Source of the DNA: a virus
Length of the DNA stretch: 64,000 nt
Reading direction: 5' to 3' (one strand)
IMG/VR virus record: IMGVR_UViG_3300031576_001126
Span: 1-64,000 of that record
The notes below the pieces were generated by a model. The model was given only the letters and a program-made list of their open reading frames with translations. It was not told the origin of the DNA and did not search any database. A program made the position numbers and the translations under genes. Shown here in pieces: positions 2,398-61,219 of this stretch. Positions within the stretch are counted from its first letter, which is position 1, and each line of letters opens with the position of its first letter.

Positions 2398-2441
2398 AGT
2401 TTTCTCCACAAAGTTTTCTTCAATAATATACGATTAATTTT

Positions 2442-9967: not shown

Positions 9968-10016
9968 GTTTTTTACTCTTTGGTTTAAGAAGGTTTCGTC
10001 TGAAGACGAGAGTAGT

Positions 10017-10854: not shown

Positions 10855-10859
10855 ATTAT

Positions 10860-10898
10860 GTGAACTACTCTCTCCTGCCTAAAGGCAGAAGTCTTTTT
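10860..10898 (+). repeat. GC-rich border hairpin, copy 2; possible terminator
   Basis: GTGAACTAC at 10860-10868 is followed by a stem of 10872-10879 with 10884-10891 around a TAAA loop (one mismatch) and then TCTTTTT. It begins five bases after the TGA of the preceding gene. The T-run makes it a credible intrinsic terminator for that gene. The GTGAACTAC lead and the position just past a stop codon match copy 1 on the opposite strand. Confidence 0.65.
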
Positions 10899-10946
10899 GA
10901 GCAAGAAGGATAAACAAGAGATATTTCTTATATAGGAGTTAGAATT

Positions 10947-31620: not shown

Positions 31621-32187
31621 ATGGAACACATTGAAAAATTAGAAGAAAAAATAATGGGTTTGGTTTATATGGTCATTAACAAAATTAATGATAAAAAATA
31701 TGTTGGGCAAACCACAAAAGGTTTGGACTGTAGAAAAAAATGGCATTTATATGATTATAAAATAAGAAAAAAAACAATCCCTGCATTTTATAATGCCTTG
31801 ACAAAATATGGTAAAAAAAATTTCAATTGGATAATTTTGAAAGACAATATAAATATTTTAGAAATAGACGAAAAAGAAAAACAATGGATAGTAAGAAAAA
31901 AACCAAAAACAATAAGTTATAATTGTTTGTATAACAAATACTTTTTAGAAGGTCTTTCTGCAAAAGATATTTCTTTTGGTTCTGGATGTTCCAAAATCCA
32001 CATTATGAAAAGTTTAAAAAAATTTGAAATTTTATCACATCCAATTAGATGGCTTAGTGAAAAAAAGAGAATTCCCATAAAAAAAATACACGATAAAAAA
32101 ATTAAAAAAGATAGTTTTACAATACAAAGAGCAATAAATAAAACATACCATAAAAATAAAATGGAGAGTGAACAATGCCTCGTGTAA
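31621..32187 (+). CDS. GIY-YIG homing endonuclease (Seg-like)
   Basis: 188 residues. LVY at 14-16 and YVG at 27-29 form the GIY-YIG pair; Arg38 (in DCRKKW), Tyr57/Asn58 (FYNALTKYG) and the acidic EIDEKEKQWI segment around residues 81-90 supply the other conserved positions. A helix-turn-helix-like segment (FLEGLSAKDISFGSGCSKI) follows, as in DNA-binding tails of such enzymes. Lys-rich and AT-rich. It stands between two structural genes and its last 13 bases overlap the start of the next one, so it is a free-standing mobile gene rather than an intron. It would cut genomes lacking it and spread by repair. Not part of the virion. Confidence 0.9.
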   Translation: MEHIEKLEEKIMGLVYMVINKINDKKYVGQTTKGLDCRKKWHLYDYKIRKKTIPAFYNALTKYGKKNFNWIILKDNINILEIDEKEKQWIVRKKPKTISYNCLYNKYFLEGLSAKDISFGSGCSKIHIMKSLKKFEILSHPIRWLSEKKRIPIKKIHDKKIKKDSFTIQRAINKTYHKNKMESEQCLV

Positions 32188-42009: not shown

Positions 42010-45000
42010 ATGGCGGATGTTAGTATACAGGCGAATGAAGCCTTTTTAAATTTCTCAGACTTGGAAGGAGATATAAGCTCTCAAAAGTTTTCTATTACAC
42101 CTAATTTGTGGGTCGGACAAGTTTTTTTGTCAAGAACTGATGAATTAGACAAGATTTTTTTCCTTTGCGACAATACGGAAGCTTTAGAAGTTGAACTTTA
42201 TACAGCTTTAGTGAGCGGCGGAGGACAAGTGTTTACCCCCGACTTTCTACTCGCTTCCGTTTCTCATCCAGAAAATGGGGCAAGTCCATTTCAAGATATT
42301 TCTGTTGGGAATCAAAGTAATTCTGGTGGAATTTGGAGAAAAATAACATTTGATACGCCAATTTCTCTTGTTGAGGGCGCATTTTATATAATAGTTTTTA
42401 AAACAACAAGCACATCTAAAAGTCCAACAATTTTCTGGACAGCAAATTATAGACAATCAATAAACCCAATAATCACCGCATCCAATGATGCTGGTGCTAC
42501 ATGGTCAAATGACAATATTGAAACAATAACGGCAGGAAATACACAAGCCGGAGCGGTTTGTTTCGGATACGTTGGAAAAGAAGTTGATACAATTACTTAT
42601 TTGGACTCTGGAACGGTCACAATAGGAGGAACAGTCTCTTCAAGAAGAGGATATTCTGTTTTTCTATATGTTGAAAATTTAGATCCATTAAGCACAACTG
42701 TTGGAATTAACTTTTCGCAATTACCTCCTTCTGATCCAATAAATGGAACCAGCGAAGAAACCGATCAGGCCATGATGAGATGGTATTTTTTTGAAGAAGG
42801 CATTTTGCCAGTTTCTGCTGATTTTGAACCAGTTTTATTCAAAACAAATGTACAAGCAAAATTAGATATTAATGCTGAATTTGTGTTGTATATCCAACCA
42901 GATAGAATCTCGCCCTTGGCCGATACATATTATCCTGAAAGTGAAATAAACACATATGCAAATCCGATAGGGTTGATTCCTATATATAGCAGCACAAAAG
43001 AATTCATAGATTTTGATACTCCTTCCAATGCCTCTGATGAAAACGTCAATATGACTGCATCAACTGATGTAACTGATAGATTTGGAATTCAAAACTGGGC
43101 TCATTTAAAAAACAAAGCTAAACTTGAAACTTCGGGTAATCAAAGGCTGGCTTCTAGTTCTCAAAATCCAAGTTATTTTGATTTTTCAACAGAAAATCCA
43201 AGCAAAGATGTCGAAATTATAAAAACAATAACTCTAGATGGAACATTAGATGGAATAGAAAATGAAGAAGATGTAACAAGAGGATTTAATAGATCTGAAT
43301 TTTTAAAAAACAAATATATATTTTTTTCAAAAAAAGCAGAACAGGGTTATATTTCTTCTCCGTCATATCCAACTACTCCTGGCAAACTTTTGGCTTATGT
43401 TGCCGATAGTGATTTGATAAATTGGGAAAGAAAAACAATATCCGTGCTGGATTCTTCTCCCTCGACTCTTGGTTTGACTTTTGGAGATACAGCTTCAACA
43501 TATATTATTGGAGTTTATGACTCTGTTGTGGTCGCTATGCAAGGTGTTGAAACATTATTTGTTTTATTTCAAACCATATCTTTTTCGACAATTGGATCGG
43601 CAACATTCCCCTCTGGATTCCATATCGGATATTATCAGGGCGATTTTAGTGAAAGCGATATTCAATTTCAATTAATCAATCATGAACTTACAGATGTTCC
43701 AAATCTTGCCGACGTTAATTTTTCAAAGTTTACAGTAAACAATATTGATGAACAAAAATCAAGATTTATATTTCCAAATAATTCGGAAATTTTATATTTT
43801 TCGGCATCTAATGCTTCTGCTATATATGGTCTTGGAATATGGAAAATAAATCTTACTGATAGTTTATCTTCAATTTACGAAGCGGAGAGATTAAAAGTAA
43901 ATTCAGATACATCTATAGAACAAACGGGTATTTCCGACGAAAAAGACAAACAAATAACATTTGTTCTTTACGATGGAAATACAACTTATCTTGGGATTAG
44001 AACTAGTATTTCATACACATTTAGTTCGGTAAATGTCCCTACGATTGGTTCAAGTTATTTTGCAAGAGTTTATAGAACTGATGATTTTACAACATTCGAA
44101 CAATTGCTTGGCGGAGAAGCTTATAATTCGGCTTCTGCCGCCAATTTTCCATCCTGGCTTTCTGGAATTCATAGCGCACAGGATTATGATCCAACAAACG
44201 AAGGTGTTGTTTGGCCTCAGGTCGGAGAAGATTTTATTCCAAGCAACGAAGTCAAATTCATGCATAAAGTTGGAAACATATTGCATGTCTGGACTAATTG
44301 CTCTGCCTTTACTTCTGCGAATACTCCAATACATGTTGCCATAGATATTGTTTCAAAATCGACCAAAGTATTAAGATTGTTCCCAATAGAAGATGAAGCC
44401 GATTCCAGTTACGGAACAATTCCCAAAGTTTCAGATCTTGAGTTATATCCAAGAAGCAAAGCGTTAAGATGGATCGAGGGTGGTTCGGTAAATGGCAATC
44501 ACATTTTTATTTATGGAGCAGAATCATTAACATCATCTCTTGAACCCGCCACAATGAGCGCCTCATTGGATACTTTTGATTATGTCGCTGATCATGTCTT
44601 TAAATCTGATGATTTTAAAACAAGATGGTTGATTTATGATGATAGAACTATAAATGATGCTTTTGAAAAATATAATAGCTTGTCTGATTTTATAGGAAAT
44701 GCTGGAATCTCATCCATTTTATTTGAAGGAACTGGAAATGATGATATAAATATTGGTGGGACATATAGCGGAACAACATTTGACGAAAGATATTTGATTG
44801 AAGTCGAAAATAAAGGTTTGGTTGAATCCTTCACTGCCGGGGTTGGGATAGGTAACGGTCCTCTTGATGATTTTAATGCCAGCGGAACACCAACGGCCAC
44901 ATCTCAAAAAGAATTTATTGTTGAAATAGATAGAATTGCAGAAGTTGGAACAGGAACAGTAGCTAATGCCGGAGTTGGATCTCTAAATGATCCAAGCGCA

Positions 45001-48000
45001 GGATTTGCCGGATCTGGATCCAATGATGCTCAATTTACAACATTATTGTTGACACCTCTCTCTCCCAAAGCCATTGGCGTTGAAATAACATCTCTTGCTG
45101 CAGCAGACGTTTTCACTGGGTCTGGACTTAATGATTTGACGGCGCAAGCATCTTTGAATCCCGGATTAACATCTCAAGAAGAATTCAAGGTTGAAATAGA
45201 TAGCGCAGGATTAATTCCAAATAATACGGGACTTACGGCCTCTGCAAGTCCTGCTCCGACTCAGCAAAAGGATTATCATGTTGAAATAGTCGAGGATGCT
45301 GGAACAGAAATATTTTTAGGTTCAGGGCAGGATGATTTAAATGCAACTGTAACTTCACCATCAGAAAGCTATACTTATCAAATAGAAATAGAAAAATTAG
45401 CTTATGAAGATCAATTTGATCCAGCTATTATTACATCTGTTGTCGGTGATGATTTGGAAGCTTTTGGCAATTCAACAGAAGGATATCTCTATCAAGTAGA
45501 AATCGTCAGAAAAGCCATGGATGTAGAAACTGTAACTGGAACATTTTTGGATGACTTCCAAGTCACAAGACAAGTTGTTTTTAATGGAACTGGAACCAAT
45601 GATTTTGAAATAGTAGAAAGTTTAAGTCAAGATGGAATAGAATATAACTATGATATTTTAATAGAAATAGATGGACTTACATCATACAAATTATCAACTG
45701 ATGGAGGAGCAACTTTTGCCAGCGCATTAAATCCAATTGTAGCCAACACTCCATTTAATGTTGCTAGTTCTGGCTGGCGTGGACAATTCACGGTTGGATC
45801 TGGCTATGTTGTTGGTGATAAATGGTCTTTTCAAACAGTAGCAAATGTTTCGGCTGTTTACAAAGTTGAAATTGATAGTATTGGTTTGGATCCTGCTCCT
45901 GACACAAGTCCAGCAAATGGGGGTATTGATGATTTATCGGCGTCAACATCTGGTGGTGGGCCTTTGGATCAATTTTTATATGAAGTTGAAATAACAGATC
46001 AATCAGCAAGGAATGTGAGTTTTTCAAATCCCAGAATAGCCACAAATGAAGATGGAATATTTACGGCGAACCAAAACTACGATCCATCAACTAGCGCCGG
46101 TGCTTTGATAAAAGCCCTTGGAAATATACCAGAGAATAGGGATTTTGACGATCTTCCATTCGGATCCGATGCAATAGCCTATAGAACAGAAATAGACGGC
46201 AAAGCCCTAGATGCGTCCGTTTATGGATCTTATTTATATACTATTTCAAGAAACATTGTATCAAATTCAATATTTAAAATAATAAACACGTCTCACTTGG
46301 ACAATATACCGTCTCCATTGTCGACAACAAATGTGTCTGTGGATGGTATTGATTTTGTTGTATCTGGAAATTATGCTTATATAATATCAACATCTCTTGG
46401 AGATAATTCTTTAGAGATATACGATGTTTCTGACAAAACTTCTCCAATGTTATTATCAACATTGGATCTCGGAATATTTGTAAGTTCGGTCATTTCTATA
46501 ATTGGAGATACTGTTTATTTAGTGTCTAATGTTGTCCCCTCTCTCCCAAATTCAAGTTCTATAAATTTAATAGTTATAAATGTTGGGAATCCATTAAACC
46601 CATACATAAGAAGTGTGACAAGATCAACCGGAGGAGGAAGCGCTTCTGCCCTTTTTTCATCAAAACCTTTGCCATTAAGAGAGATGGTTTATCTTTCTCA
46701 ATCAAGCACAGCCTCGTTTTTTATTGTTAATGACAAAGATATTCCTCTAAATATAGGCCCAACGGACAACACTTTCGATGGTGGAAGTGGACAGACCGGC
46801 ATAGAGGCTTTAGATGACAGACTTTATGTTGCAAGCAGCAACAATAGAAAAGTTTTTGTATATAACGATCTCTCTTCCATGGAGTCCTTTGTTAGTTATG
46901 TTTTGCTTTCTGGTGGACCATTTTTTGAAGGAGAAATGATTGTAAAAACTTCATCGACTCCTACGGCCGGTGCTAATGCTACAATATTAACCGTAGTTGC
47001 ACCTTTTCCAACATCAGGTGAATTAAAATTAGGAAATGCATCACAATTAACTGGGATAACCATAGCTCCAAGTTCACAGTTTATATCAGGAGATACAATT
47101 TTTGGGGTTGAAAGTGGTGCTACTGCGACATTATCCTCAGGATTAACATTTAAAAACAAAGATGCTTCTGGTGCAAATCAGACTTCTACTGTTGGATTTA
47201 GAAAGGCAGCAACGATAACAACCTTTGGATTGAACCCAAATAATGTTCATCCTTTTAATTTTCTTATAAAGTCCAGTGAAGCAATCATTCTTAGCTCGCC
47301 GCCCATAACCATTGATTCGTTTGAAAATTCTACAGAATTTACATTTACTGTCTCTGGAACAACGGCAACAATATCTGGAAACATTACAGCACAAATTTTA
47401 AATGGATCTACTGTTAAATTTTACAATTTAACTGGCGGATCTGCCAATATTCTATTTGTAACATACAGAACTGTGCGCTCTGTCACCTATAATTCTGGTC
47501 CAAACACTACGACATTTACAATTTCTTCTATTTTAAGCGATAGAACTGGAGGAAAATGCTTTAAAATTGTAAATTATACGTTGCTTGCAGTTTCTTTGAC
47601 TGGAACAAATGCGGGTGTTGAAATTTACGATATGACAAATATCATAAATTTGGATGCATCTTTAAATCCATTAATATATCCATCACAAATGCTTGCAAGA
47701 ATTCCATTGTCAGATTTATCAGGATCTCCAAATTTCATATCAAATAGAGGCGATATTTTATATATATCCACAAGTGCCGGAGTGGATATATTTGAAATAT
47801 CAAGATCTTCCATAGTTCATAGTCATGAAAATCTTGGACATCTTATTGCTAAAAAAATAAACTCAACATCCGCCGGATCAACAATTGGAAGACTTGCCGT
47901 TTCTCCGATAAGTATATCTAATAATGTTGAATTTATAGGAAGGGTTGGACCAGTTTCCTTTACTCCTGTTTCCCTGGCGTCATCTGCTGGAAACAATATT

Positions 48001-51000
48001 CTACAAGCCATATCTGTGGATGGGAGATTGTCATTATCTTCTATTTCTGGATTTAATGCTGGAGATACAATAACTGGCTTGACATCTGGAGCCACGGCTA
48101 TAGTTTTCGCCTCTACAATTGGTTCGACGGCATATGGAAATCTTAATGGGAAATTTATACTTGGAGAAACAATTTCAAGTTCGGGAGGAGGCTCGGCTTC
48201 AAATTTTGGGTTATCAAATCCAGAACTACTAAGTATGAAGTCTGGAAAATACATTATAAAAGCAACATCAAGCACACAATATGTTTACTCTACAGATGGT
48301 GGAAAAACATTTACCACAACGCCAATTTTAATGTTAACATCCTTTGCGGGAATTGGATCAACTGGAGTTAGTATCAGGTTCGAGAGCACAACAACTCATG
48401 TCGCCGGAGATATTTGGGAATTCGAGGTTGGTCCAAATGGAATTTTCGATTACAAGGTTGAGATAGATAGTCTGTGGAATGATTCTTTGATTTTCACTGG
48501 ATCTGGATTGGATGATCTTAAAGTTTTTGGAGATCCGACCAATAATATTGATGTCGAAATAACAATAGATGGAACAGCGGAACAATTCGGATATGGTTAT
48601 GGGTTTGGATTGGGTGGAGACTTTTTCAACATATTCGGTTTTGCCGGCCCAGATTATGGTTATGGCGGAGGATCTTTCGAATATGATTATGCATATTCTT
48701 ATGATTATGGACTAGGATACGAGTATGGATATGGATATCCATTTGAAAACAACGCCACATCAACGGACACATTCTCTTATGTTGCAACAGTAAATAGCAT
48801 AACTATAGCATCTGGTTTTCAAATACCAATAACAGAAGATTTACAAAACATAACAAATGGAATACAAATAGAGTTTGGAAGCAAAGGCAAATTTAGCGAA
48901 GACTATCTCTTCACGTTATTCGGTTCTGCATCTCCGAGTGATGGATTCCAAATAATAAAATTGGATTCTATATATTCTGATTTAACATCTGGAGCAATAG
49001 TAGAAACACAATCTGTAGAAGATGCTGTTACTTTAGGACAAGTTAGTATTGCCTGCGATGAAAACTTAATGATAATAGGCAATCAAACTACTCCGTCTGT
49101 TTATATTTACAACACTAGAGATCCAGAGAATACCCATCTTGTTGGTGTGGAATCAGTAGTCCAGAATTGTGAAGACATTAGAATAAATGACAATTTACTA
49201 TTTATCGGTGGAAATTCTGGAGGAAACTCTCAATTTGTTATATATGATTTAACATATGCACAAGTTTCTGAACTTGTTGAGGACGATGTTGTTAATTTAT
49301 CGGATCCTTTTGTGAACATAAGAATAAAAGATGATTATGCTTTTGTTTTGGTAGATGACAGCGTTAATATAATTCTTCAATCTTGGGATATTTCCAATCC
49401 AATCAGTGTTCCAGTTTCGCCTGATGATACTTTGTCTTTGTCGTTTACGTCCGGCGGAGCGGATGCCTTGTCGTCTACAATTTCTGGAAATTATCATTAT
49501 TCTGCTGGGAATGTATCTGGAACATATTTTTTGAAAACTGTCGACATAACAAATCCAACGGCGCTTGTTTTATCAAGCTCTATATCTTTTGAATCTTCTT
49601 TTGTGGTTTTTTCCATAACATCTACTAATAATTTTTTATATATAACAGGACATAGGACAGTCCCAATTAATGCCGAAAGGCTTGTAAAGGTGTATGATAT
49701 TGTTTCTACTCCTGGAACTCCGGTTTTTACTGGAGAATATAAAGACTCCTTTGATGGTGCAGATTCTAGGATGACAGACATAAAAGCCAAAGATGGTATT
49801 GTGTATACAATGGCATTAAATAATAGCACTTCAGCATCATCCCTCTATATAATAGATGTTTCTCAACCAACAAATCCGTCATTATTAACAAGTATATTGG
49901 TTGCTGATTACACTGTTTTATTAAATCTATGCACATTAACAAGAACGCAGGGGCATACTTATGGGGACAAATGGAATTTTTCATCCAGAGACACATTTAG
50001 ATGGACCGATGACGCAAGAAGACCAGTTACCATTTGGAACGAAGAAGAAGTCGAGATAAATTCTGGAATTCAGAACATAGACAATTTAACCGCAGTGCTT
50101 TTCTTAGAAAAAACAGCAGGATATGCTCTTGGTGACACTTGGGATTTTTCAACTGTTGATACTTTTAGATGGGCGGCGGATATAACTGGAACGGTATTGG
50201 ATATTTCTGATTCAAGTTTTGAATGGCAAGAAGAAAAAATCAAAGCGCCATTTGAAGGCGGAGTTATTGATCTAGAATCCACTTCTCCATTTGACAATCC
50301 AAATGTTAAATTGGATTTCTTTGATTCCAACGGATATTTCATAGGAGATTTTATAGACTGGTCATACACTCAACAAGATAGTTATTCTGTAAGAATTTAT
50401 GAATTTAATCCACTTCTTGGTTTGGATGTAATTAGAACATCACCATTTTTGATTACTCCAACTACGCCAACTTTGCCAACAAATCAACTTGTTACCGCAG
50501 GATCTCCGGTGTCGGTTGCAATAACTTCTCCTGAAGCAACTGGCCCTGTTTTTGTGGAGTTTGATGGTGGAATAGGACACAAAACTGGAGATAAATGGAC
50601 ATTTACAACACTAGATACATTCAGATGGACAGATAAAGTTTTTCCTCAACTTATTGACAACGATCCTATCTCTGGTTTTGTTATTCAATGGAATGAAACA
50701 AAAGTTCCAATTATGACGGACGTATTAACTCTATATTCTTTAAATAATAATGTTGATATTACCATAGGTAATAAAAATGGCCATGATATAGGAGATGCTT
50801 GGATTTTTTCAACTGTTGATACTTTTAAATATTCGGTTGGGGATGATCTAGATGACTTGTCTCAAAAAAGAACCGATATTCCCATACCTCTCGAAGGAGG
50901 AATTTCAAGCATTGGAAAACAAGATACTGCCGCAAACGATAAAGATTCTGAAAATAATGTATTTATAGATTCAAACTATGATGTAGGACACAGTATTGGT

Positions 51001-54000
51001 GATAAATGGACATTTTCAACAACTGATGCCTTTAGATATATCATATTGAACTTTGGATATGGTTATGGATTTGGATCGGGGGCCGATTACTTTGATGTGT
51101 TTGGTCATCTTGGAGGATTTGTTGGATATGGATGGGATACTTCAAATCAAATAGGCACAAATAATCAATTATTTGAATCTGTTAATGCATCACAATATGG
51201 ATATGGAACGGGATATGAATATGGTTTTGGTCAATATGGATTCTCTTTTGACATAGACATTAATTGCATTCCAATAAAATTAACAAACAACATAGGCAAT
51301 GGTGTTGTTTTGGATTTTTCAAATCTTTCTGGGCACAGTGGAAATGAAATTTGGCAATTTTCATCATCAGACAAGTTTGTCTACAATATAGACGGTGGAT
51401 CTGATATTGGACCAATAAATGTGAGTGATGATTTTGTTGGTGTTGAAAACGGGATATCAATAAAATTCAACAGTCTTTCTGGATTTTCAGTTGGAGATTC
51501 TTGGGATTTTAAAACAATAGATACTTTTAAATATTATGAAGATAATGTTCTTATTGCTTCTAATATTAATTTATCAACATCGTCAATAAGTCTTGAGTCA
51601 TATATGAGCATATCGTTTGGAAACGTGACTGGCCATACTGTTGGCAATTATTGGACTTTTGATGCTTTAGATGAATTCACGTATGAAGTTAAAACTCTTC
51701 CAAACACCAAAACGCTTAACGATAGCATAGTTCTTGGATCAACCATTACTGGATCGACATCTGTTATAACTGGGATTTCTCAACCCGTTGGAGGAGGCTC
51801 AGATGTTGATGTTACATTTACAAATCAAAATGGACACACTCTTGGAGATAAATGGAGAATAGCAAATGTTGATTCTTATAAGTGGAGTGATAATAATGGC
51901 TTATCTTATACCATATTAAAAATAGCGACATCAACACCAAGTCTTCTTTCCAATGGAATTTCAGCAAGTTTCCCAACTCTTAACAATTTGAGAAATCACA
52001 ACGTTGGAGACAAATGGACTTTCGATGCTTTAGATGAAATTAAGTGGTCTAAAAATAATGGGTCCACATTTGAAGCAAGTGGATTGCCCGCCTTGATATC
52101 TCCGACAACATCGATAGGGAGTGGTCTTAATTTTTCATTTGATGCATCACTTGGACATGATATCGGGGATATATGGACTTTTCATCCAGTTCCAAAAATA
52201 GGGTATCAACTTGTGGAAGGGAAAGGTGTTTATCATGGAAAAACAATAGCGATATTTGATCACGATGAAACAGCAAGAATGTTTTCTGATTATCCCGCTC
52301 TTTCTCCGGATCTTAGTACTCTATCAACAAAACCAAGGGCTGGAATTTATTGTGGATTAGTTAACTATGCTGGAAGTTCTGTTGATAATATAGAATTTGA
52401 CAATTCAAATACCCCAGAATCAATAATAACAGCTAATGGTATTACTTATATAATATCTGAAAATGATGACGACGGAATAAGAGCGTTTAAAACCTATGGA
52501 ATAAAAGAACTTCCTCAAAATTGGGGTAAATCTTTTCAAACATCTTTGGGAGCGCAATCAACTATAACTGCTTTTGAAAAAATAGATATAGATAAAGCAA
52601 ATTTTGAACTCGCTGTCGGAGGGCCAAGCACTTTTGTAAATATCATAAGAAGAGGCCATGTTCAAAAAATAAATGGCGCTGTATTTATTTCTGAAATAAA
52701 AAAAGATTCATTATCTGCTGGATTTGATAATGTAAACTTAACATTTCCCAATAGATCTATTTTAGCTATATCTAATACGCTAAGAAGACCTCAAGAAATA
52801 ACAGCTTTCTTTAATATTAATTATCTTGGAGATATAGAGTCGGATGTCATAGGCGGTGTTCCTGTGGCCGATATTCTCTCAAATATAGAGGCTTCCAACA
52901 CGAATATTTTTATAAAATGCGCAGAAACCATAGAAAAATTATTTGAAGAACCAAAAGCCATATTAGATATTCCCCTGGCTCAAGATGTTGATGGAAGTAA
53001 TTCTACAAGATCTCTTATATCAAACACATTCCAAACAGATACTGAAAATAACTTCTTCAGAATAGAAAGTAACAATCTTCTATCGGATGATAGTGGAAGC
53101 GGAAATCCAAGAGAATTAGTTGATTTGAAAATAAAAGGATTAAGATTACACGATATAACTTTGCAAGGTCCTGAAGAAAATACAAACAATATGAAAGTTG
53201 CTGTTACTGGCATAATTGACGAAGGATCAGGAGTTCCTGAAAATGCTCTTCAAAACGGAGTTCATGTGCCTTCCAATGGGGAGATAATCGTTGATTTCAA
53301 CAAACCAATTTATTTAAGCGAAATCAGCTTTGACGTTGAATACTTTGGAACGGATTTAGCTGGCGCTAACCAATCTCAATTCTCGATATATGCTCTTACG
53401 ACATTCCACAATCAAAAATATGGAAATAATATAATTGACAAGAATGATTGGACTTTAATTGGATCTCCGGAGTTTGTAAGTCTTACTGGAAATCAAGATT
53501 CCATTTCAAAAGATGCCATAGGCATGTTTGTAAAGTCAGTAAGAATATTTCTTAATTCCGGGGTCACCCTGAAAGTAAAGAATCTGTCATTCAAAAGTTT
53601 TACTGGATCTTCTGATCAATTTTCTTCAAGTGGAGATGTGAAGTCCCCGGAAATGATAACAATAGATGATCCATTCGGAATCCTTGTTGCGGATATTTCC
53701 GGGATGCCGTCTTCTTTTGCAGTGTTAAATAGTGACGGCAGCAATATAACTATAGATTTAGAGGAAAACGTTCCTGTCACAAGAATTTCTCTCGGAGCAT
53801 ATTCCGGAAACGATCCAACAAAATCTTTGAAAATAGAATCATGGGACGGAGCCACTACATTGCTTGGGTCTCCGGTTTATGAAATACTTCATAATGCTCC
53901 AATAAGCGATTATGAACTTTCTGTTGTACAATGGACTCCAAGATTAAAAGATAAGTCCAGAGAAGTTCAAGTTATTTTCCTTTCTTCAGGGGATATAGAA

Positions 54001-54450
54001 AGCGAAAGTCAATTGAACGATTTAATTGAATCATATAACAAACCAGAAAACTCAGCGTTACTTGCAAATTCTGGACTTTCCGGTTTTGTTTTCAAGCCAA
54101 ATACTTTAAAGGATAGAACGCTTACAATAACTTCTTCAAAAGAATCTTCTGGGGAATTTGACGGTTCTATTTTTGTCAATGCACAGATGGATGAAGATGG
54201 ACCTTTTGCTTCTGATTTATCAGAGGAAACTTTAGGATTAATTGAGAAAAAGATTAATGTAGATTTCCCGCTTAGACAAATAAGAAAAATAAAAATTTCT
54301 TTGACTAGCCAAATGCCTAACAACGCTGGTGTCAGGGTAAACGGTCTCAAAATATACTCGCCAATTGTCGATGAAACAGGCACAGCGGAATTCCCAAGAA
54401 CTGGGGTTGCATGGACAATAAGACTCACAGCAAGCATTATAACGCAATAA
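42010..54450 (+). CDS. Giant modular tail fibre (4146 residues)
   Basis: GGAG precedes the ATG. Residues 1-350, ~380-880 and 3401-4146 are homologous to the next gene. The centre, absent there, is a chain of repeats: ~900-1340, about nine DDL/VEI units (FTGSGLNDLTA ... VEID); ~1384-1940, LVIVD-type beta-propeller blades (SGNYAYIIS, LEIYDVSDKTSPMLLS) with SGATA modules and the ~80-residue cassette at ~1776-1856; ~2191-2251, a YGYG-DFFNIFG module; ~2318-2637, a second LVIVD propeller; ~2646-3397, about eleven GH-x-x-GDKW-x-F units with a second YGYG module at ~3014-3079. The shared C-terminus ends in VNGLKIYSPIVDETG and a final sheet. No signal peptide. It would be an extended adhesive fibre. 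The frame is intact over 12.4 kb. Confidence 0.93.
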   Translation: MADVSIQANEAFLNFSDLEGDISSQKFSITPNLWVGQVFLSRTDELDKIFFLCDNTEALEVELYTALVSGGGQVFTPDFLLASVSHPENGASPFQDISVGNQSNSGGIWRKITFDTPISLVEGAFYIIVFKTTSTSKSPTIFWTANYRQSINPIITASNDAGATWSNDNIETITAGNTQAGAVCFGYVGKEVDTITYLDSGTVTIGGTVSSRRGYSVFLYVENLDPLSTTVGINFSQLPPSDPINGTSEETDQAMMRWYFFEEGILPVSADFEPVLFKTNVQAKLDINAEFVLYIQPDRISPLADTYYPESEINTYANPIGLIPIYSSTKEFIDFDTPSNASDENVNMTASTDVTDRFGIQNWAHLKNKAKLETSGNQRLASSSQNPSYFDFSTENPSKDVEIIKTITLDGTLDGIENEEDVTRGFNRSEFLKNKYIFFSKKAEQGYISSPSYPTTPGKLLAYVADSDLINWERKTISVLDSSPSTLGLTFGDTASTYIIGVYDSVVVAMQGVETLFVLFQTISFSTIGSATFPSGFHIGYYQGDFSESDIQFQLINHELTDVPNLADVNFSKFTVNNIDEQKSRFIFPNNSEILYFSASNASAIYGLGIWKINLTDSLSSIYEAERLKVNSDTSIEQTGISDEKDKQITFVLYDGNTTYLGIRTSISYTFSSVNVPTIGSSYFARVYRTDDFTTFEQLLGGEAYNSASAANFPSWLSGIHSAQDYDPTNEGVVWPQVGEDFIPSNEVKFMHKVGNILHVWTNCSAFTSANTPIHVAIDIVSKSTKVLRLFPIEDEADSSYGTIPKVSDLELYPRSKALRWIEGGSVNGNHIFIYGAESLTSSLEPATMSASLDTFDYVADHVFKSDDFKTRWLIYDDRTINDAFEKYNSLSDFIGNAGISSILFEGTGNDDINIGGTYSGTTFDERYLIEVENKGLVESFTAGVGIGNGPLDDFNASGTPTATSQKEFIVEIDRIAEVGTGTVANAGVGSLNDPSAGFAGSGSNDAQFTTLLLTPLSPKAIGVEITSLAAADVFTGSGLNDLTAQASLNPGLTSQEEFKVEIDSAGLIPNNTGLTASASPAPTQQKDYHVEIVEDAGTEIFLGSGQDDLNATVTSPSESYTYQIEIEKLAYEDQFDPAIITSVVGDDLEAFGNSTEGYLYQVEIVRKAMDVETVTGTFLDDFQVTRQVVFNGTGTNDFEIVESLSQDGIEYNYDILIEIDGLTSYKLSTDGGATFASALNPIVANTPFNVASSGWRGQFTVGSGYVVGDKWSFQTVANVSAVYKVEIDSIGLDPAPDTSPANGGIDDLSASTSGGGPLDQFLYEVEITDQSARNVSFSNPRIATNEDGIFTANQNYDPSTSAGALIKALGNIPENRDFDDLPFGSDAIAYRTEIDGKALDASVYGSYLYTISRNIVSNSIFKIINTSHLDNIPSPLSTTNVSVDGIDFVVSGNYAYIISTSLGDNSLEIYDVSDKTSPMLLSTLDLGIFVSSVISIIGDTVYLVSNVVPSLPNSSSINLIVINVGNPLNPYIRSVTRSTGGGSASALFSSKPLPLREMVYLSQSSTASFFIVNDKDIPLNIGPTDNTFDGGSGQTGIEALDDRLYVASSNNRKVFVYNDLSSMESFVSYVLLSGGPFFEGEMIVKTSSTPTAGANATILTVVAPFPTSGELKLGNASQLTGITIAPSSQFISGDTIFGVESGATATLSSGLTFKNKDASGANQTSTVGFRKAATITTFGLNPNNVHPFNFLIKSSEAIILSSPPITIDSFENSTEFTFTVSGTTATISGNITAQILNGSTVKFYNLTGGSANILFVTYRTVRSVTYNSGPNTTTFTISSILSDRTGGKCFKIVNYTLLAVSLTGTNAGVEIYDMTNIINLDASLNPLIYPSQMLARIPLSDLSGSPNFISNRGDILYISTSAGVDIFEISRSSIVHSHENLGHLIAKKINSTSAGSTIGRLAVSPISISNNVEFIGRVGPVSFTPVSLASSAGNNILQAISVDGRLSLSSISGFNAGDTITGLTSGATAIVFASTIGSTAYGNLNGKFILGETISSSGGGSASNFGLSNPELLSMKSGKYIIKATSSTQYVYSTDGGKTFTTTPILMLTSFAGIGSTGVSIRFESTTTHVAGDIWEFEVGPNGIFDYKVEIDSLWNDSLIFTGSGLDDLKVFGDPTNNIDVEITIDGTAEQFGYGYGFGLGGDFFNIFGFAGPDYGYGGGSFEYDYAYSYDYGLGYEYGYGYPFENNATSTDTFSYVATVNSITIASGFQIPITEDLQNITNGIQIEFGSKGKFSEDYLFTLFGSASPSDGFQIIKLDSIYSDLTSGAIVETQSVEDAVTLGQVSIACDENLMIIGNQTTPSVYIYNTRDPENTHLVGVESVVQNCEDIRINDNLLFIGGNSGGNSQFVIYDLTYAQVSELVEDDVVNLSDPFVNIRIKDDYAFVLVDDSVNIILQSWDISNPISVPVSPDDTLSLSFTSGGADALSSTISGNYHYSAGNVSGTYFLKTVDITNPTALVLSSSISFESSFVVFSITSTNNFLYITGHRTVPINAERLVKVYDIVSTPGTPVFTGEYKDSFDGADSRMTDIKAKDGIVYTMALNNSTSASSLYIIDVSQPTNPSLLTSILVADYTVLLNLCTLTRTQGHTYGDKWNFSSRDTFRWTDDARRPVTIWNEEEVEINSGIQNIDNLTAVLFLEKTAGYALGDTWDFSTVDTFRWAADITGTVLDISDSSFEWQEEKIKAPFEGGVIDLESTSPFDNPNVKLDFFDSNGYFIGDFIDWSYTQQDSYSVRIYEFNPLLGLDVIRTSPFLITPTTPTLPTNQLVTAGSPVSVAITSPEATGPVFVEFDGGIGHKTGDKWTFTTLDTFRWTDKVFPQLIDNDPISGFVIQWNETKVPIMTDVLTLYSLNNNVDITIGNKNGHDIGDAWIFSTVDTFKYSVGDDLDDLSQKRTDIPIPLEGGISSIGKQDTAANDKDSENNVFIDSNYDVGHSIGDKWTFSTTDAFRYIILNFGYGYGFGSGADYFDVFGHLGGFVGYGWDTSNQIGTNNQLFESVNASQYGYGTGYEYGFGQYGFSFDIDINCIPIKLTNNIGNGVVLDFSNLSGHSGNEIWQFSSSDKFVYNIDGGSDIGPINVSDDFVGVENGISIKFNSLSGFSVGDSWDFKTIDTFKYYEDNVLIASNINLSTSSISLESYMSISFGNVTGHTVGNYWTFDALDEFTYEVKTLPNTKTLNDSIVLGSTITGSTSVITGISQPVGGGSDVDVTFTNQNGHTLGDKWRIANVDSYKWSDNNGLSYTILKIATSTPSLLSNGISASFPTLNNLRNHNVGDKWTFDALDEIKWSKNNGSTFEASGLPALISPTTSIGSGLNFSFDASLGHDIGDIWTFHPVPKIGYQLVEGKGVYHGKTIAIFDHDETARMFSDYPALSPDLSTLSTKPRAGIYCGLVNYAGSSVDNIEFDNSNTPESIITANGITYIISENDDDGIRAFKTYGIKELPQNWGKSFQTSLGAQSTITAFEKIDIDKANFELAVGGPSTFVNIIRRGHVQKINGAVFISEIKKDSLSAGFDNVNLTFPNRSILAISNTLRRPQEITAFFNINYLGDIESDVIGGVPVADILSNIEASNTNIFIKCAETIEKLFEEPKAILDIPLAQDVDGSNSTRSLISNTFQTDTENNFFRIESNNLLSDDSGSGNPRELVDLKIKGLRLHDITLQGPEENTNNMKVAVTGIIDEGSGVPENALQNGVHVPSNGEIIVDFNKPIYLSEISFDVEYFGTDLAGANQSQFSIYALTTFHNQKYGNNIIDKNDWTLIGSPEFVSLTGNQDSISKDAIGMFVKSVRIFLNSGVTLKVKNLSFKSFTGSSDQFSSSGDVKSPEMITIDDPFGILVADISGMPSSFAVLNSDGSNITIDLEENVPVTRISLGAYSGNDPTKSLKIESWDGATTLLGSPVYEILHNAPISDYELSVVQWTPRLKDKSREVQVIFLSSGDIESESQLNDLIESYNKPENSALLANSGLSGFVFKPNTLKDRTLTITSSKESSGEFDGSIFVNAQMDEDGPFASDLSEETLGLIEKKINVDFPLRQIRKIKISLTSQMPNNAGVRVNGLKIYSPIVDETGTAEFPRTGVAWTIRLTASIITQ

Positions 54451-54463
54451 GTGGAGAGAATTA

Positions 54464-57400
54464 ATGTCCACTCGCACGGATTTTAAAATAAAAACAAGTG
54501 AATCATTTTTTAATTTGCCGGACACTTCTAATGTTGCTGTGCAGAAATTCACAATAACTAATGAAAATTGGATAGGTCAAGTTTTTATTTCAAAAAGTTC
54601 AGAACTTCAAAAATTCTTTTTCCTTTGCAACGACACCGAAGGTCTTGAAGTTTTTATTCACAAAGCTGATGTTTCTACTTCAAACGGAAGAACAATTTAT
54701 ACTCCAAATCAAATTGTTGTTTCTATCATTCATGAAGTTGATGGCCTAAGTCCATTTCAAGTTATTGAAAAAGACAATCCAGATAGTGTTGCCTCGTGGA
54801 ATTATCCGAATTGGCTTGCAACACCGCAAACAGCGAATGATCAGGAAGAACCCTACATTGTTGTTTTCAAGACAACATCAGATAAAAAACCCGAAGTTTA
54901 TTACACTTTTGAATACAGACAACCTATATTTCCTCAAATAATAGGTTGGAACGGAGAAGCATGGTCGAATAACAACATATCCACAAAAACAGTGAACAAA
55001 ACACAAATAGGCGCAGTCTGTTTTGGATTTATAGGAAACAATTTAAGAGAACATGATCTTGACTTGGGATCTTTGATTGTTGGAGGAAGAGATACGGCAA
55101 GAAGAGGATACCCGGTATTTATTTTTGCTGAAAATATTTCTTCTCAAAACGACAATATTATTTTGGATTTCTCAACAGTTTCTCCTGAAGATTCTTCTCT
55201 TGGAACTCCTGAAGAAACTTCAAAATCCATGATGAAATGGTATAGGTTCAATAGAAACACATTGCCGACTTCTAAGAATTTAGAATTGCTTGATGCTGAG
55301 TTTAAGACGGAATTAAATGCTGAAAACAATTTTGTGTTATTTATACATCCCGATAAACTGTCTCCATTTGCAGACACCTATCTTCCACCGTCCGACATAG
55401 AAATGATATCTAATAAAATAGGAGTTGTTCCAATTTATGATAGTGGAGAGACCAACAATAGATTTGCAACCGATTTTACAAATAGATTTCAGAAAAAATT
55501 CTGGGCTAAGTTTTCTAAAGATACTATTCTTGATCCAATAATATCTACTATAACAACTTCGGAAAAAGATCTTGATGAGAAAAGTTTAAGTGGTTTTTTG
55601 AATGGTAACTTCGCAAATGGAACAACCTCATGGCTAACTTCAGGTTCCACTATTGTCTCGGAAACTGGGACTGGAAATTTTTTGACTGGGAACGGAATAA
55701 CAAATTCAAAAAGTATAAAATTCAACCATCCTTCAAGTGGCGCATCTTTTGGTTCTCAATCTCATCCATCGTTTTTTCAATCCATAACTACTCAAAATTT
55801 GGAATCTCAAATTACTGGCAATAGTGTTTATGATTCAATAACACCGGCCGATGAATTGGAAAATCCAAGCGATCCAGATGGAGATGGGACAAGTGGAAGA
55901 TTGCATTATGTTTATTATGTCAAACGCTCAATGACGGGGTTTGCGGCAACAGAAAACGGCATAACAAGATTAGCTTTTGTGAAACAAAATGGCCAAAGTT
56001 ACATAGAAATAGTCCCAAATTATGAAGAAATATTACCTGAGGGAGAAACGGTTCCAACAACTATATCGCCTTTGGATGGCTATGAATATAGTGACACTCA
56101 GGGATGGGTCAGAATTAGTGGATATTTCAATCTAAGGACAGGCGGATCATATACAATTGATTTTTCTCCGACAGGGGCATATATAAATGGAACTTCCTAT
56201 TTTGTTATAAGGCCAACTATTCCAGCTTCAACTCAAGAAGTTTTTGTTGATGAAGTTTCTTTGACTTATTTTGATGCAACGCAGATAACGCAAACAGATG
56301 ATATAATAACAGGCAGAAACGCTTCTGGTAGCAGAAATCCAGACTATATAGATTTTTCTTTCGAAAATCCTAATGGAGAAGTTGATATTGTAAAAAAATT
56401 AACTCTATCTTCAGACATATTGGATGGGTCTTTAACCGAAAAAGAATTGGTTAGGGGTTTTGATAAGGTTGTGTTTTACAAAGGCAAATATGTTTTTTTC
56501 TCAAAAAAAACAATTGACGGACTGTTGGTTTCAAGTCCAGCTTCTATTCCAGCTACTCCGGGCAAGCTTGTTGTTTATGTTGCCGATAGCGATCTGACAA
56601 ATTTTCAAAAGAAAACAGTTCAACTTTTGGATTCTTCGCCATCAACACTTGGAATTGGCACTGGTGGAACAGAAAAAACTTATATCATAGGATTGAACGA
56701 TACAATTGTCACGAATGTATCTGGTGAAGAAACAATATTGTTTTTAACAAAAACTTTTGTAGCTTTGGGTGTCTCTCCAATTTCATATCCATCCCAATTT
56801 GACATTGGATATTATCAAGGAGATCTCTCTGAATCAACAATAAATATTCAACTAATAAATCACGAATCCACGGGGGCTCTAGACCTATCGTCAACACCAA
56901 TTGATAGATATTTTGGATCTTTTGCTCATCTTGACTCAAGAATACTTTCCGATGATAAAAATAATGCAATTTTCATATCTCCAAATAATTTAAATAATAT
57001 TTATATTTCTGCAAGTTCTGATAATTGTTCTCAAAATAAATTTGTTGGATTGGGATTGTGGAAAATAGATCTTAATGATAGTTTGTCGTCAATTTATGAA
57101 GCCGAAAGATTAAAGCCAAATTTTGAAATTCAAGCTATAGATATAAATCTAGGAACATTAAACACTGCTCAAACTGGCATATCTTCATTTAGAGATTCCA
57201 GAATAACATTTGTTTTATACGACGGGAATACAACTTATCTCGGAGTCAGAGGAAGAACTCTTTGGACGCAACCATTGTCGGTCAATGTTCTTTCCGAACA
57301 AAATACATGCAGAATATATAGAACAGTTGATTTTGTTACATTTGAACAATTGCTGGGGAACGAACCAATTTATTCTTCTGGCAATTTGCCATCTTGGCTT

Positions 57401-60400
57401 GCTGAATTTAGTTCAATAGAGGATCTGTTCACAACATCTGGGCTTGGAGACGAGATAATAAATAATGATGTAAAATTCATGTATAAAGTAGGAAATATAT
57501 TGCATGCATGGATATGTCCTCATTTTTTTGATGAAAAAAACACACCAATGCATATTGGCATAGATACAAATAACAAACTTATTTCGGTTTTAAGAAAATT
57601 TCCAATAGAAAATGTTGGCGATTCTAATTATGAGATATCTCCAAAAGTTTCAGATCTTGAGCTATACCCAAGAAGCAAAGCGTTAAGATGGATCGAAGAC
57701 GGTTCAGTAAATGGAAACTATATTTATATCTGTGGGGCCGATACATTATCCTCAAACACTGAAAATCCAACTCAAGATATAATAAATATAAATGATAATG
57801 TTCCTGTTTGCCATAGTTATCCAGATTCTTATTCTGCAAGATGGATAATGTATGATGACAGAATAATAAACAAACCTTTTGTATCTGATATAAACAATAG
57901 AAAATTTTTTATGTTTATCCCAAACTCAACATCCTTAATTGCGATTGGTGTCGGAAGAGATTCCGCAGAATTGGTAAAGGATTATCCCAGTATAACGTCA
58001 ACGTATGCCGACTTAGCTGTGAAATTAAATAGCGATGTTGGATATTACAAAGAGAATCCTCCAGTAAATAAAATTAAAATACTAGATATGAGAGACGGAA
58101 CAAATATAACTGTTATTAATAATACTGGAATAAGTGGAGGTGAAAATTTTGGAACAATAAACAATGGAATTTTTGTAACAAACAACAATGTTTATATAAC
58201 AAAGGGATCTGATTTTAGAATATATACTTCGGCTTCCATTTTAAACCCAAATTCTTCAGTTTTTGGATCCGTTTCCATTTCATCTCCTTTTGGGAAAAAG
58301 TTTTTTGGAACAGTTTCTGTATTTGAGCCAAACATTGCAGTAGGAATAATTGTAGATCTAGCAACCGGATTCCTGTCTAGTTTGGTTTTGATAAACATAT
58401 CAAATAAAGCATTCCCTTCGGCAATTCAATATTTGCCAAATCTTCCCTTTGGTGAAAGTTATTTATCTTTAGATTTTAGCGATACAGGAAACACATTGTA
58501 TGCCGCCGGGAGAAATGTTAGTGGAAATTTTATAGATATTTTTGATGTAAGTTCATCAATGTTGAATTTTGTAACGAGATTACAGACGGGCTCAACTTTT
58601 TTCTTTACAGACAGAATAAAAGTTCAAAGAGGAAAAAACAAAATAATATACAACATTTCTAATGTTGTTTTCGTATACGATATCTCTGCCGAATTAAATC
58701 CTATTCTTATGGATTCAATTGGTTTTTTAGCAAACATAGCTTTTATATCTTTCTTAAACGGAGGTCATCCTGAATCTGACGAAATTGATGATATAATATT
58801 CGTGGTATTAACAAATGGCGAAATCAATGCCTTGGATATCTCGAATATATCTATTGATGGTATTGTTACTTTGTATAATAAAAAAATATTAAATAGCGTT
58901 GTTCCTTTTACTCATTTTTCTGACATAGGAAGTTCTATAAAAATCAGAGAAGGTTTTGAAACGATAAGAGGCAAGGGCATATACAATGGAAAAACGGTTA
59001 TAAAATTTGATCATGATGAAAAATCATCAACTTTTAAAAAATATCCAGCTTTATTCCCTGACGATTCCACCGTAGAGACTAAACCAAGAGTCGGCATGTA
59101 TTGTGGATTGGTTTCTTATGGTTCTGATGAAAACATAGGAATAGAAAATGACACAAACAACATTATATCAAAATTATTTTCTTATGGTGGTATAAATTAT
59201 ATTTCTGTTAATAATGAAAATAGTGGATTTAATTTATATAAAACATATGGCATTAAAGAACTTCCACAAAATTGGGGCAATTCTTATAGAGACATAGAGG
59301 GAAACTTGGCCGACATAAACACCTATTATTCTCTTGATATAGATAAAGCTGCATTTGAAAATGTTTTTTTTGGCAAAGAAACATTTAAAAATATATCTAG
59401 AATATCGGAAACAATAAATTCAAACAATACATATTTTATTTCAGAATTAAAAACAAACAATTTATCATCCAATTTTATTGACATAGATACGGATAATCCA
59501 GAAAGAAATCTTGTATTTTTAAATCTAAATTACAAAAAACCACAACACATATCTATGTTTTATAATCTAAATTATTTTGGAGATGGTTCTGACATATTGG
59601 ATTTGAGTGACACAAACACATCTGAGACAGAATTAACGTTTACTTCCGCACAAACATTGGAAAAACTTTTTACAGATCCGGATCAAATTATAACCATACC
59701 TTTGGCTCAGGAAGTTTCCAATGATCCATCAAATAGGACTTTTATAAGAAAAACTTTACCAGCAGATATCTCATCTAATTTTTTCAGAATAGAATCAAGC
59801 TCAGTTTATGATAATGAGGCTAATGGTATAAATGTTTATATAAAATCTCTTTCTGTGAATGATGTTTCTCTTAGTTTCCCCGATTCTGAGACAGCAATTA
59901 AAACCGTGGTGGTTAATGGAATTGTATACGGAACATCACAAAGTCCAGAAAATATTATAGAAAATGACGCTATTTTGCCTCCAGATGGGGAAATAATAAT
60001 AGACTTCACTAAACCAATATATATAAATGAAATAAATTTCAAAGCCAAATATTCAAGCCCAGACTTTAAAGGTGTTGGAAGAGCAGAGTTTGAATTTTTA
60101 GCAATAACAAATATTGAAAAGGAATCAACGGGCAATGACTTGGTGTCTTCTAAAGACTGGATAAGTCTTGGAAATTCTGTATTTTATGGAAACCTAAATA
60201 ACGAAAGCGAAATATCAAAGAAAAACATATTGTCATACATACAATCTATTAGAATAATTTTAAAGTCTTCAATATCTATAACAATCAAAGAATTATCGAT
60301 AAGGGGCTTTTCTTCTGGATTATTAAATCAATTTGTTTCGTCTGGAGATATCAAATCCCAAGAATTAATTTTAGTAGATGATATTTTCGGTTTGCTTGAG

Positions 60401-61219
60401 GCCAATAACGGTTCTGTTGCTGGTGCTTTTGCTTCTTTTGAATCAAACAATAGTTCATTGGAATTTGATCTTGGTCAAACAGTTCCGATAACAAGGATAA
60501 CAATGAATGTTGCTGGAGAAGAAGAAACAAACACAAGAACACTTCAAGTTGACACTTGGGATGGAACCACTCTTTCGGAAGGGAATCCTCAGTTTGATAA
60601 TGTTTTTACAGGATCTGTGCCAAATTATGGGTTTTCATTAGTTAGATGGAAAGCAAGACCAAAAGAAAGATCGAGAGAAGTGGAAGTTGAATTCTTGGAT
60701 TCATCAGCGCCATATACTCCAGATCCATTATTAAACGACTTAGAACTTGGCGATTTTTTACTTGATTTTAACAACATATCTAATAATTCTGGGCTTCTTT
60801 TAAGATCCGGTTTGTCTGGATGGTCGTTTAGGCCATCTGTTTTTAAAGATAGATCAATTAGCGTATCTTCAAGTGAAGGAAGATTTGAAAGCGGAGATGA
60901 TGAAGATTATGTGGATGAAAATACAGATGGTTTTATTGTCGTTAATGCGCAAATGGATGAAGGTGGACCGTTTAAGGATGATGGAACAGGAAATGCCATC
61001 GGGCTTCTTGAAAACAAATTAAGTATAGATTTTTCAGCAAGAGATGTTAGAAAGATAAAAATAACTTTAAGGAATCAATTGTTCGGTGGAAGTTCTCTTA
61101 AAATCAATGGATTGCGAGTCTATACGCCAATTGTGGATTCTTTAGGAATGGCCATATTTCCAGTTTCAATGCCTGAATTGACAATAAGATTCAAAATCAA
61201 TGTTTCAACGGAAAAGTAA
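54464..61219 (+). CDS. Giant tail fibre, paralogue of the 4146-residue protein (2251 residues)
   Basis: GGAGAG lies just before the ATG. Residues 1-350 match the N-terminus of the previous protein (both have NWIGQVF or LWVGQVF, FFLCN/D-TE, a QIGAVCFG-like segment and RRGYPVF). Residues ~373-606 hold a CBM-like jelly-roll (GFLNGNFANGTTSW ... VFVDEVSLTYF) that the long paralogue lacks at this place. Residues ~620-1130 are the shared propeller-like region (VADSDLTNFQKKTVQLLDSS). Residues ~1206-1480 contain weaker propeller blades (IDIFDVSSSMLNFV). Residues 1503-2251 are the shared C-terminal block, starting GKGIYNGKTVIKFDHDE. So this is the short form of the fibre, or its hetero-partner. Confidence 0.92.
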   Translation: MSTRTDFKIKTSESFFNLPDTSNVAVQKFTITNENWIGQVFISKSSELQKFFFLCNDTEGLEVFIHKADVSTSNGRTIYTPNQIVVSIIHEVDGLSPFQVIEKDNPDSVASWNYPNWLATPQTANDQEEPYIVVFKTTSDKKPEVYYTFEYRQPIFPQIIGWNGEAWSNNNISTKTVNKTQIGAVCFGFIGNNLREHDLDLGSLIVGGRDTARRGYPVFIFAENISSQNDNIILDFSTVSPEDSSLGTPEETSKSMMKWYRFNRNTLPTSKNLELLDAEFKTELNAENNFVLFIHPDKLSPFADTYLPPSDIEMISNKIGVVPIYDSGETNNRFATDFTNRFQKKFWAKFSKDTILDPIISTITTSEKDLDEKSLSGFLNGNFANGTTSWLTSGSTIVSETGTGNFLTGNGITNSKSIKFNHPSSGASFGSQSHPSFFQSITTQNLESQITGNSVYDSITPADELENPSDPDGDGTSGRLHYVYYVKRSMTGFAATENGITRLAFVKQNGQSYIEIVPNYEEILPEGETVPTTISPLDGYEYSDTQGWVRISGYFNLRTGGSYTIDFSPTGAYINGTSYFVIRPTIPASTQEVFVDEVSLTYFDATQITQTDDIITGRNASGSRNPDYIDFSFENPNGEVDIVKKLTLSSDILDGSLTEKELVRGFDKVVFYKGKYVFFSKKTIDGLLVSSPASIPATPGKLVVYVADSDLTNFQKKTVQLLDSSPSTLGIGTGGTEKTYIIGLNDTIVTNVSGEETILFLTKTFVALGVSPISYPSQFDIGYYQGDLSESTINIQLINHESTGALDLSSTPIDRYFGSFAHLDSRILSDDKNNAIFISPNNLNNIYISASSDNCSQNKFVGLGLWKIDLNDSLSSIYEAERLKPNFEIQAIDINLGTLNTAQTGISSFRDSRITFVLYDGNTTYLGVRGRTLWTQPLSVNVLSEQNTCRIYRTVDFVTFEQLLGNEPIYSSGNLPSWLAEFSSIEDLFTTSGLGDEIINNDVKFMYKVGNILHAWICPHFFDEKNTPMHIGIDTNNKLISVLRKFPIENVGDSNYEISPKVSDLELYPRSKALRWIEDGSVNGNYIYICGADTLSSNTENPTQDIININDNVPVCHSYPDSYSARWIMYDDRIINKPFVSDINNRKFFMFIPNSTSLIAIGVGRDSAELVKDYPSITSTYADLAVKLNSDVGYYKENPPVNKIKILDMRDGTNITVINNTGISGGENFGTINNGIFVTNNNVYITKGSDFRIYTSASILNPNSSVFGSVSISSPFGKKFFGTVSVFEPNIAVGIIVDLATGFLSSLVLINISNKAFPSAIQYLPNLPFGESYLSLDFSDTGNTLYAAGRNVSGNFIDIFDVSSSMLNFVTRLQTGSTFFFTDRIKVQRGKNKIIYNISNVVFVYDISAELNPILMDSIGFLANIAFISFLNGGHPESDEIDDIIFVVLTNGEINALDISNISIDGIVTLYNKKILNSVVPFTHFSDIGSSIKIREGFETIRGKGIYNGKTVIKFDHDEKSSTFKKYPALFPDDSTVETKPRVGMYCGLVSYGSDENIGIENDTNNIISKLFSYGGINYISVNNENSGFNLYKTYGIKELPQNWGNSYRDIEGNLADINTYYSLDIDKAAFENVFFGKETFKNISRISETINSNNTYFISELKTNNLSSNFIDIDTDNPERNLVFLNLNYKKPQHISMFYNLNYFGDGSDILDLSDTNTSETELTFTSAQTLEKLFTDPDQIITIPLAQEVSNDPSNRTFIRKTLPADISSNFFRIESSSVYDNEANGINVYIKSLSVNDVSLSFPDSETAIKTVVVNGIVYGTSQSPENIIENDAILPPDGEIIIDFTKPIYINEINFKAKYSSPDFKGVGRAEFEFLAITNIEKESTGNDLVSSKDWISLGNSVFYGNLNNESEISKKNILSYIQSIRIILKSSISITIKELSIRGFSSGLLNQFVSSGDIKSQELILVDDIFGLLEANNGSVAGAFASFESNNSSLEFDLGQTVPITRITMNVAGEEETNTRTLQVDTWDGTTLSEGNPQFDNVFTGSVPNYGFSLVRWKARPKERSREVEVEFLDSSAPYTPDPLLNDLELGDFLLDFNNISNNSGLLLRSGLSGWSFRPSVFKDRSISVSSSEGRFESGDDEDYVDENTDGFIVVNAQMDEGGPFKDDGTGNAIGLLENKLSIDFSARDVRKIKITLRNQLFGGSSLKINGLRVYTPIVDSLGMAIFPVSMPELTIRFKINVSTEK

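Follow-up and report, generated by a model that had tools for sequence, protein, structure and literature searches.

Adjacent lateral tail-fibre genes have been described in the T5-like siphoviruses DT57C and DT571/2, where the products LtfA and LtfB were proposed to form a branched fibre; each is predicted to have a self-cleaving chaperone domain at its C terminus, and LtfB is unrelated to the T5 fibre (PMC4728585). Klebsiella phage RaK2, a contractile jumbo phage of 346 kilobases (kb), has a multi-fibre adhesion apparatus and many paralogous proteins (PMC3622015). Here we analyse two adjacent giant open reading frames (ORFs) in the IMG/VR virus record IMGVR_UViG_3300031576_001126 (140,188 bases); the window is the whole stretch under analysis, bases 1–64,000 of that record. 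The ORFs encode 4146 and 2251 amino acids (aa) and are called the long and the short copy below. We consider it fairly probable that they arose in a siphovirus-like phage by ancient tandem duplication of one gene, whose product is a tail-tip adhesin of great length and many domains.

The pair resembles LtfA/LtfB in consisting of adjacent siphovirus tail-fibre genes with repeats in one member and differing binding parts. It differs in that N-terminal (~920 aa) and C-terminal (~750 aa) blocks are common to both members and in that the chaperone domain was not found. The short copy had no tblastn match at E 1e-3 among 50,697 INPHARED phage records, and thereby showed no sequence relation to the N-terminal attachment domain of T5 Ltf; at the C terminus, no Peptidase_S74 match appeared in Pfam up to E 1. 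With RaK2 the locus shares an elaborate tail-fibre apparatus and many paralogues in the genome, but here the record is siphovirus-like, 140 kb long, and roughly one half of it encodes the tail tip. Tail fibres with paralogues, and fibres that grow by modules, were known before; what is unusual here is how large the proteins are, how much of the genome they fill, how clearly the insertion of repeats and modules can be seen, and a tyrosine/glycine-rich (Tyr/Gly) module.

Homology between the two copies

Both ORFs are preceded by a purine-rich GGAG-type site.

42010–54450, plus strand: long paralogue, 4146 aa, GGAG ribosome-binding site directly 5'
54464–61219, plus strand: short paralogue, 2251 aa, GGAGAG 5' of the start, 13 bases past the first stop

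These positions and sizes agree exactly with the initial annotation of this DNA, which had described N-terminal (~880 residues) and C-terminal (~750 residues) blocks shared in the same order and had proposed an alignment as the check. BLASTP of the long against the short copy joined the two by three collinear blocks, in agreement with tblastn within the record.

42016–43128, plus strand: shared block 1, long copy, residues 3–373 (39% identity to short-copy residues 6–357, E 1e-69)
54479–55534, plus strand: shared block 1, short copy, residues 6–357 (BLASTP)
43144–44778, plus strand: shared block 2, long copy, residues 379–923 (46.5% to short-copy residues 618–1178, E 1e-126)
56315–57997, plus strand: shared block 2, short copy, residues 618–1178 (BLASTP)
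52201–54447, plus strand: shared C-terminal block, long copy, residues 3398–4146 (39% to short-copy residues 1497–2250, E 6e-160)
58952–61213, plus strand: shared C-terminal block, short copy, residues 1497–2250 (BLASTP)

The homology reaches far beyond short motifs (E 1e-69 to 6e-160 over the three blocks) and is collinear across most of the shorter protein, above chance. The shared C-terminal part has the ~750 residues first proposed, and the N-terminal part takes up ~920 residues of the long copy rather than ~880. As judged by these alignments, 42010–54450 and 54464–61219 are true paralogues, beyond doubt. The C-terminal block of the short copy also gave a weak discoidin-like Pfam match (F5_F8_type_C_2, E 0.006), below the cut-off.

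Codon alignments gave proportions of non-synonymous (pN) and synonymous (pS) differences of 0.40 and 0.66 for block 1, 0.35 and 0.60 for block 2, and 0.41 and 0.67 for the C-terminal block. Protein identity in the codon-aligned blocks is 40–49%, and synonymous sites are near saturation. Because the synonymous sites are near saturation while the protein sequence has been kept, the gene was duplicated long ago and each copy has been maintained as a protein; the range of pN (0.35–0.41) against pS (0.60–0.67) indicates protein-level constraint on each. By this measure the pair is the product of an ancient tandem duplication of one gene, with both copies under constraint.

The centre of the long copy

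Between shared block 2 and the C-terminal block lie 2474 aa in the long copy versus 318 aa in the short, which bears out an earlier remark on a repeat-built centre of about 2,500 extra residues. This centre is a mosaic of repeats and modules.

44779–52200, plus strand: centre of the long copy, residues 924–3397, mosaic of 2474 aa with no match in phage records
45661–45855, plus strand: isolated unit of a ~60-aa repeat ('GHxxGDxWTF..DTFRW'), residues 1218–1282, independent E value (i-E) 8e-21
48253–48450, plus strand: isolated unit of the ~60-aa repeat, residues 2082–2147, i-E 3e-21
49804–52209, plus strand: ~60-aa repeat, main array with some ten units, residues 2599–3400
46162–47889, plus strand: LVIVD propeller-like stretch I, residues 1385–1960, PF08309 at 24.9 bits (cut-off 20.2)
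48970–49932, plus strand: LVIVD propeller-like stretch II, residues 2321–2641, PF08309 at 20.6 bits (cut-off 20.2)
47311–47565, plus strand: ~80-aa module, residues 1768–1852, within stretch I, common to ORF 2442–7259 (phmmer E to 2e-17)
4155–4403, minus strand: ~80-aa module as it occurs in fibre gene 2442–7259 (SHAEG repeats, opposite strand; phmmer)
3747–3968, minus strand: ~80-aa module, second copy within 2442–7259 (phmmer)

Short repeats of the type 'FTGSGLDDL...VEIDxxG' occupy residues ~905 to 1300. The ~60-aa repeat, with a consensus around 'GHxxGDxWTFxxxDTFRW', is present in 12–14 copies, two as isolated units and about ten in one array; the other long genes of the record contain no convincing copy. 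Its units are diverged from one another (37–42% identity between single-unit pairs, 29% over the longest stretch, pS 0.62–0.69), and the array is therefore old.

Two stretches, both in the long copy only, reach the PF08309 gathering cut-off. They are LVIVD-like at that level, and the family covers just part of the protein; a phage tail role for LVIVD proteins is not described in the literature we searched. The ~80-aa module within stretch I shares 47–51% identity with the copies in ORF 2442–7259 (pS 0.63–0.66). That ORF, on the minus strand, encodes a 1605-aa fibre protein in which SHAEG..TTASG repeats form a long series (phrog_25468, E 3e-129), broken up by the two module copies.

The long copy also carries two copies of the Tyr/Gly module, a segment of ~60 aa with the pattern YGYGYGYG..(D/S)(F/Y)F(D/N)(V/I)F..YGYG..YGYGYEY (also written YGYGYGYG..DFFDVFG..YGYG). 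Five tail genes hold it: 32175–36296 (one copy), 42010–54450 (two), 61222–62553 (one), 69975–88838 (three) and 89078–96400 (two).

48571–48747, plus strand: Tyr/Gly module copy 1 of the long copy, residues 2188–2246, FGYGYGFGLGGDFFNIFG...YGYG...
51043–51249, plus strand: Tyr/Gly module copy 2 of the long copy, residues 3012–3080, in the repeat array between a DAFRY strand and the next unit
33216–33434, plus strand: Tyr/Gly module of ORF 32175–36296
61879–62109, plus strand: divergent Tyr/Gly module copy of ORF 61222–62553

The core pattern has 8 matches in the five tail proteins versus none in 2000 residue shuffles. The copies are kept as protein, since they are 36–61% identical at the protein level and most have a pS above 0.55.

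The short copy's own parts

Two segments of the short copy fall outside the shared blocks.

55535–56314, plus strand: insert found in the short copy alone, residues 358–617, ~260 aa, carbohydrate-binding-like by eye
57998–58951, plus strand: centre of the short copy, residues 1179–1496, 318 aa, no Pfam match

Part of the neighbouring upstream protein of 1899 aa is related to the insert (28% identity, BLASTP E 6e-6; hhalign E 1.5e-5). A weak resemblance links the centre to the long copy's stretch II (BLASTP E 0.015; phmmer E 0.004; hhalign score 21.2 compared with 19.5 for the best of 60 shuffles); against stretch I the hhalign score of the centre was not above the best shuffle. These values are suggestive of homology between the two centres, and a common propeller-like centre is possible. 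The initial annotation had held that the short protein does not match the long centre: the ~60-aa repeat is indeed absent from the short copy, but the resemblance to stretch II and the short copy's own insert were not foreseen. The short copy is not simply a deleted form of the long copy.

Position in the tail module

Upstream of the pair, two genes anchor the tail module.

16447–17568, plus strand: tail protein, phrog_290 (E 1e-9), anchor of the tail module
19196–22888, plus strand: probable tape measure protein, 1230 aa, helical and rich in Ala, Lys and Glu, with a tape measure protein-type motif (GGxVxG..TPGEYVV) by eye

The motif of 19196–22888 is C-terminal. A head-tail adaptor gene (phrog_195) lies upstream on the same strand, and two small upstream genes sit where, we presume, tail chaperones usually occur. 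After 19196–22888 come proteins of 1749, 1079, 1373, 1899, 4146, 2251, 443, 2195, 6287 and 2440 aa; including a small ORF at 31416, this giant cluster totals 23,925 aa, or 51% of the 140-kb record. In the usual siphovirus tail gene order, the region past the tape measure encodes the tail tip and fibres. The pair lies downstream of the tail tube and tape measure genes, and this gene order therefore places it at a siphovirus-like tail tip. We infer the label 'fibre' for the pair from gene order. The LVIVD-like stretches, the carbohydrate-binding-like insert and the repeat array point no less to a beads-on-a-string adhesin than to a trimeric needle fibre.

Other members of the cluster extend beyond the window. 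Its largest, 69975–88838, encodes 6287 aa in one ORF and shows BNR/sortilin-like repeats by eye. A 2440-aa tail-region protein is encoded by 89078–96400; its DUF3604 match passes the Pfam cut-off and a VWA match stays below threshold, both odd for a phage tail. A GIY-YIG endonuclease ORF (31621–32187, E 1e-6), possibly a homing endonuclease, lies among the giant tail genes.

Origin of the pair

If an adhesin gene was duplicated as we favour, the conserved ends would do the same jobs in both proteins, the N-terminal part docking to the tail tip and the C-terminal part folding, capping or binding, and the centre of variable length would be a spacer and binding section that sets reach and specificity. 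The long centre would have been built by tandem amplification of the ~60-aa repeat, the long copy would also have gained in-frame modules that this phage has elsewhere among its tail genes, and the short copy would have gained a carbohydrate-binding-like domain instead. The outcome would be two side adhesins of differing reach and specificity on one virion. The patchwork filling of the long copy probably builds a larger adhesive tail tip. Of the duplication and modular growth of one copy first proposed, duplication and modular divergence stand; both copies changed, not one, because residues 358–617 are an insert peculiar to the short copy, whose centre also differs. A protein of 4146 residues had likewise been called exceptional; its size is unusual, but the same record has one of 6287 residues (69975–88838), and our literature searches on giant phage proteins yielded no direct precedent.

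Searches for relatives, which had been suggested as a way to tell the ancestral form, found none of either protein. Scans of IMG/VR viral contigs with both proteins or their alignments as queries returned no relative of the pair, nor did the species genomes scanned or the INPHARED records. Alignment searches returned nothing from the two related phage records, G001 and G002; lacking a positive control, these searches carry low weight. The failure to find relatives limits every evolutionary statement made here. Several points weigh against our interpretation: no relative was found that would tell growth from loss; the N- and C-terminal blocks match no family of known function; PDB profile searches found no solved relative; AlphaFold2 models of the two blocks are poor (predicted local distance difference test scores of 27 and 33); homology searches did not place either protein in the virion; and the tape measure protein was recognised from its motif by eye.

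The alternative that fares best is that the ancestor was long and that deletion after the duplication removed the greater part of the short copy's centre. The short copy's retained outer blocks and the weak resemblance of its centre to stretch II fit such a loss, but the ~60-aa repeat has left no trace in it and its ~260-aa insert is an independent gain, and we regard deletion as unlikely, if still a serious contender. We infer that module exchange and repeat amplification made the long form; a deletion that made the short form is less likely.

Somewhat more doubtful is that the pair assembles into a single fibre, hetero-oligomeric or branched, like the one put forward for LtfA/LtfB (PMC4728585). 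The initial annotation had suggested a hetero-oligomer or else a long and a short version of the same fibre; either may hold. The genes are adjacent and likely co-expressed, the shared ends would allow subunits to pair, and paired fibre genes have precedent. However, no sequence match was obtained among the phage records searched, and neither protein was found to have the Peptidase_S74-type chaperone domain that both precedent proteins carry C-terminally.

The cluster could instead encode secreted or surface-displayed proteins that are not virion parts, since one neighbour has DUF3604 and sub-threshold VWA matches, which are unusual for tails. This appears improbable: the cluster follows directly on the genes for tail tube and tape measure, the N terminus does not look signal-peptide-like by eye, and the ORFs starting at 32175 and 69975 begin with a common N-terminal domain, which presumably belongs to a type known from phage tail proteins.

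That the long centre is an assembly artefact (a chimera, or repeat collapse or expansion), a concern raised in the initial annotation and prompted by a metagenomic record and a repeat-built insert, is very hard to credit and is countered, for repeat-driven mis-assembly, by sequence-level tests, given a frame open across 4146 codons, no DNA-level tandem repeat or long near-identical repeat (the DNA repeats are short and diverged), even G+C content, repeat units too diverged for assembly confusion (29–42% identity, pS 0.62–0.69), and modules that match other genes as protein, not as copied DNA.

Distribution of the Tyr/Gly module

Among 2.9 million viral contigs, one other contig (L006, of record G001) carries the Tyr/Gly module, at the C terminus of a 188-aa protein (6125–6691). 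A looser pattern gave 52 matches in viral contigs, 51 of which show no module when read, and all eight matches in 84,980 species genomes were chance, none real. The phage of L006 is a distant relative: ~20 proteins of the record studied here match it at 20–53%, mostly replication proteins and glycosyltransferases.

Rickettsia palindromic elements are in-frame insertion elements, and the Tyr/Gly module is like them in being a short in-frame module within several unrelated proteins. It differs in that its copies are conserved as protein, near-saturated at synonymous sites and confined to tail genes, and DNA-level likeness of the Rickettsia type was not seen between them. A DNA-level mobile element is judged an unlikely source of the modules because the copies differ at synonymous sites.

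Enzymes that might modify tyrosine are encoded in both phages. A PF13469 sulfotransferase lies at 1582–2409 (minus strand) in the record studied here, and two lie close beside the module gene in L006 (7078–7815 and 7802–8524, minus strand); both phages also have glycosyltransferase genes. The module may conceivably be a portable substrate of a phage-encoded tyrosine-modifying enzyme, with the PF13469 sulfotransferases or the glycosyltransferases as candidates, but we rate this as a long shot. Bacterial tyrosine sulfation has a precedent in RaxST and RaxX of Xanthomonas (PMC6637879). Our literature searches on phage tyrosine sulfation yielded no direct precedent. Sulfotransferases and glycosyltransferases are common in phages and two genomes make no correlation, so a phage equivalent of RaxST/RaxX is a guess; to our knowledge, decoration by tyrosine sulfation or glycosylation is known in no phage. 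If the idea were true, the tail tip would bear arrays of sulfated or glycosylated tyrosines, and the module together with sulfotransferases in two distant phages would be a lead to tyrosine modification of phage adhesins.

Further observations concern the record studied here and G001. In the former, DNA polymerase III alpha is encoded in two parts (L004:6443–7807 and 9140–11287) with two small ORFs between; its matches in G001 are close to each other, on either side of the L073/L074 join. G001 also has a 2035-aa ORF (L071:9451–15555, minus strand) whose second half holds a tRNA nucleotidyltransferase domain.

Implications

A siphovirus-like phage here gives about half of a 140-kb record to tail-tip proteins, most of them 1,000–6,300 residues long. 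Within this cluster, an old paralogue pair displays how such giants grow, by repeat amplification and by in-frame module exchange among the tail genes of one genome. A related genome, if found, would make growth versus loss directly testable.

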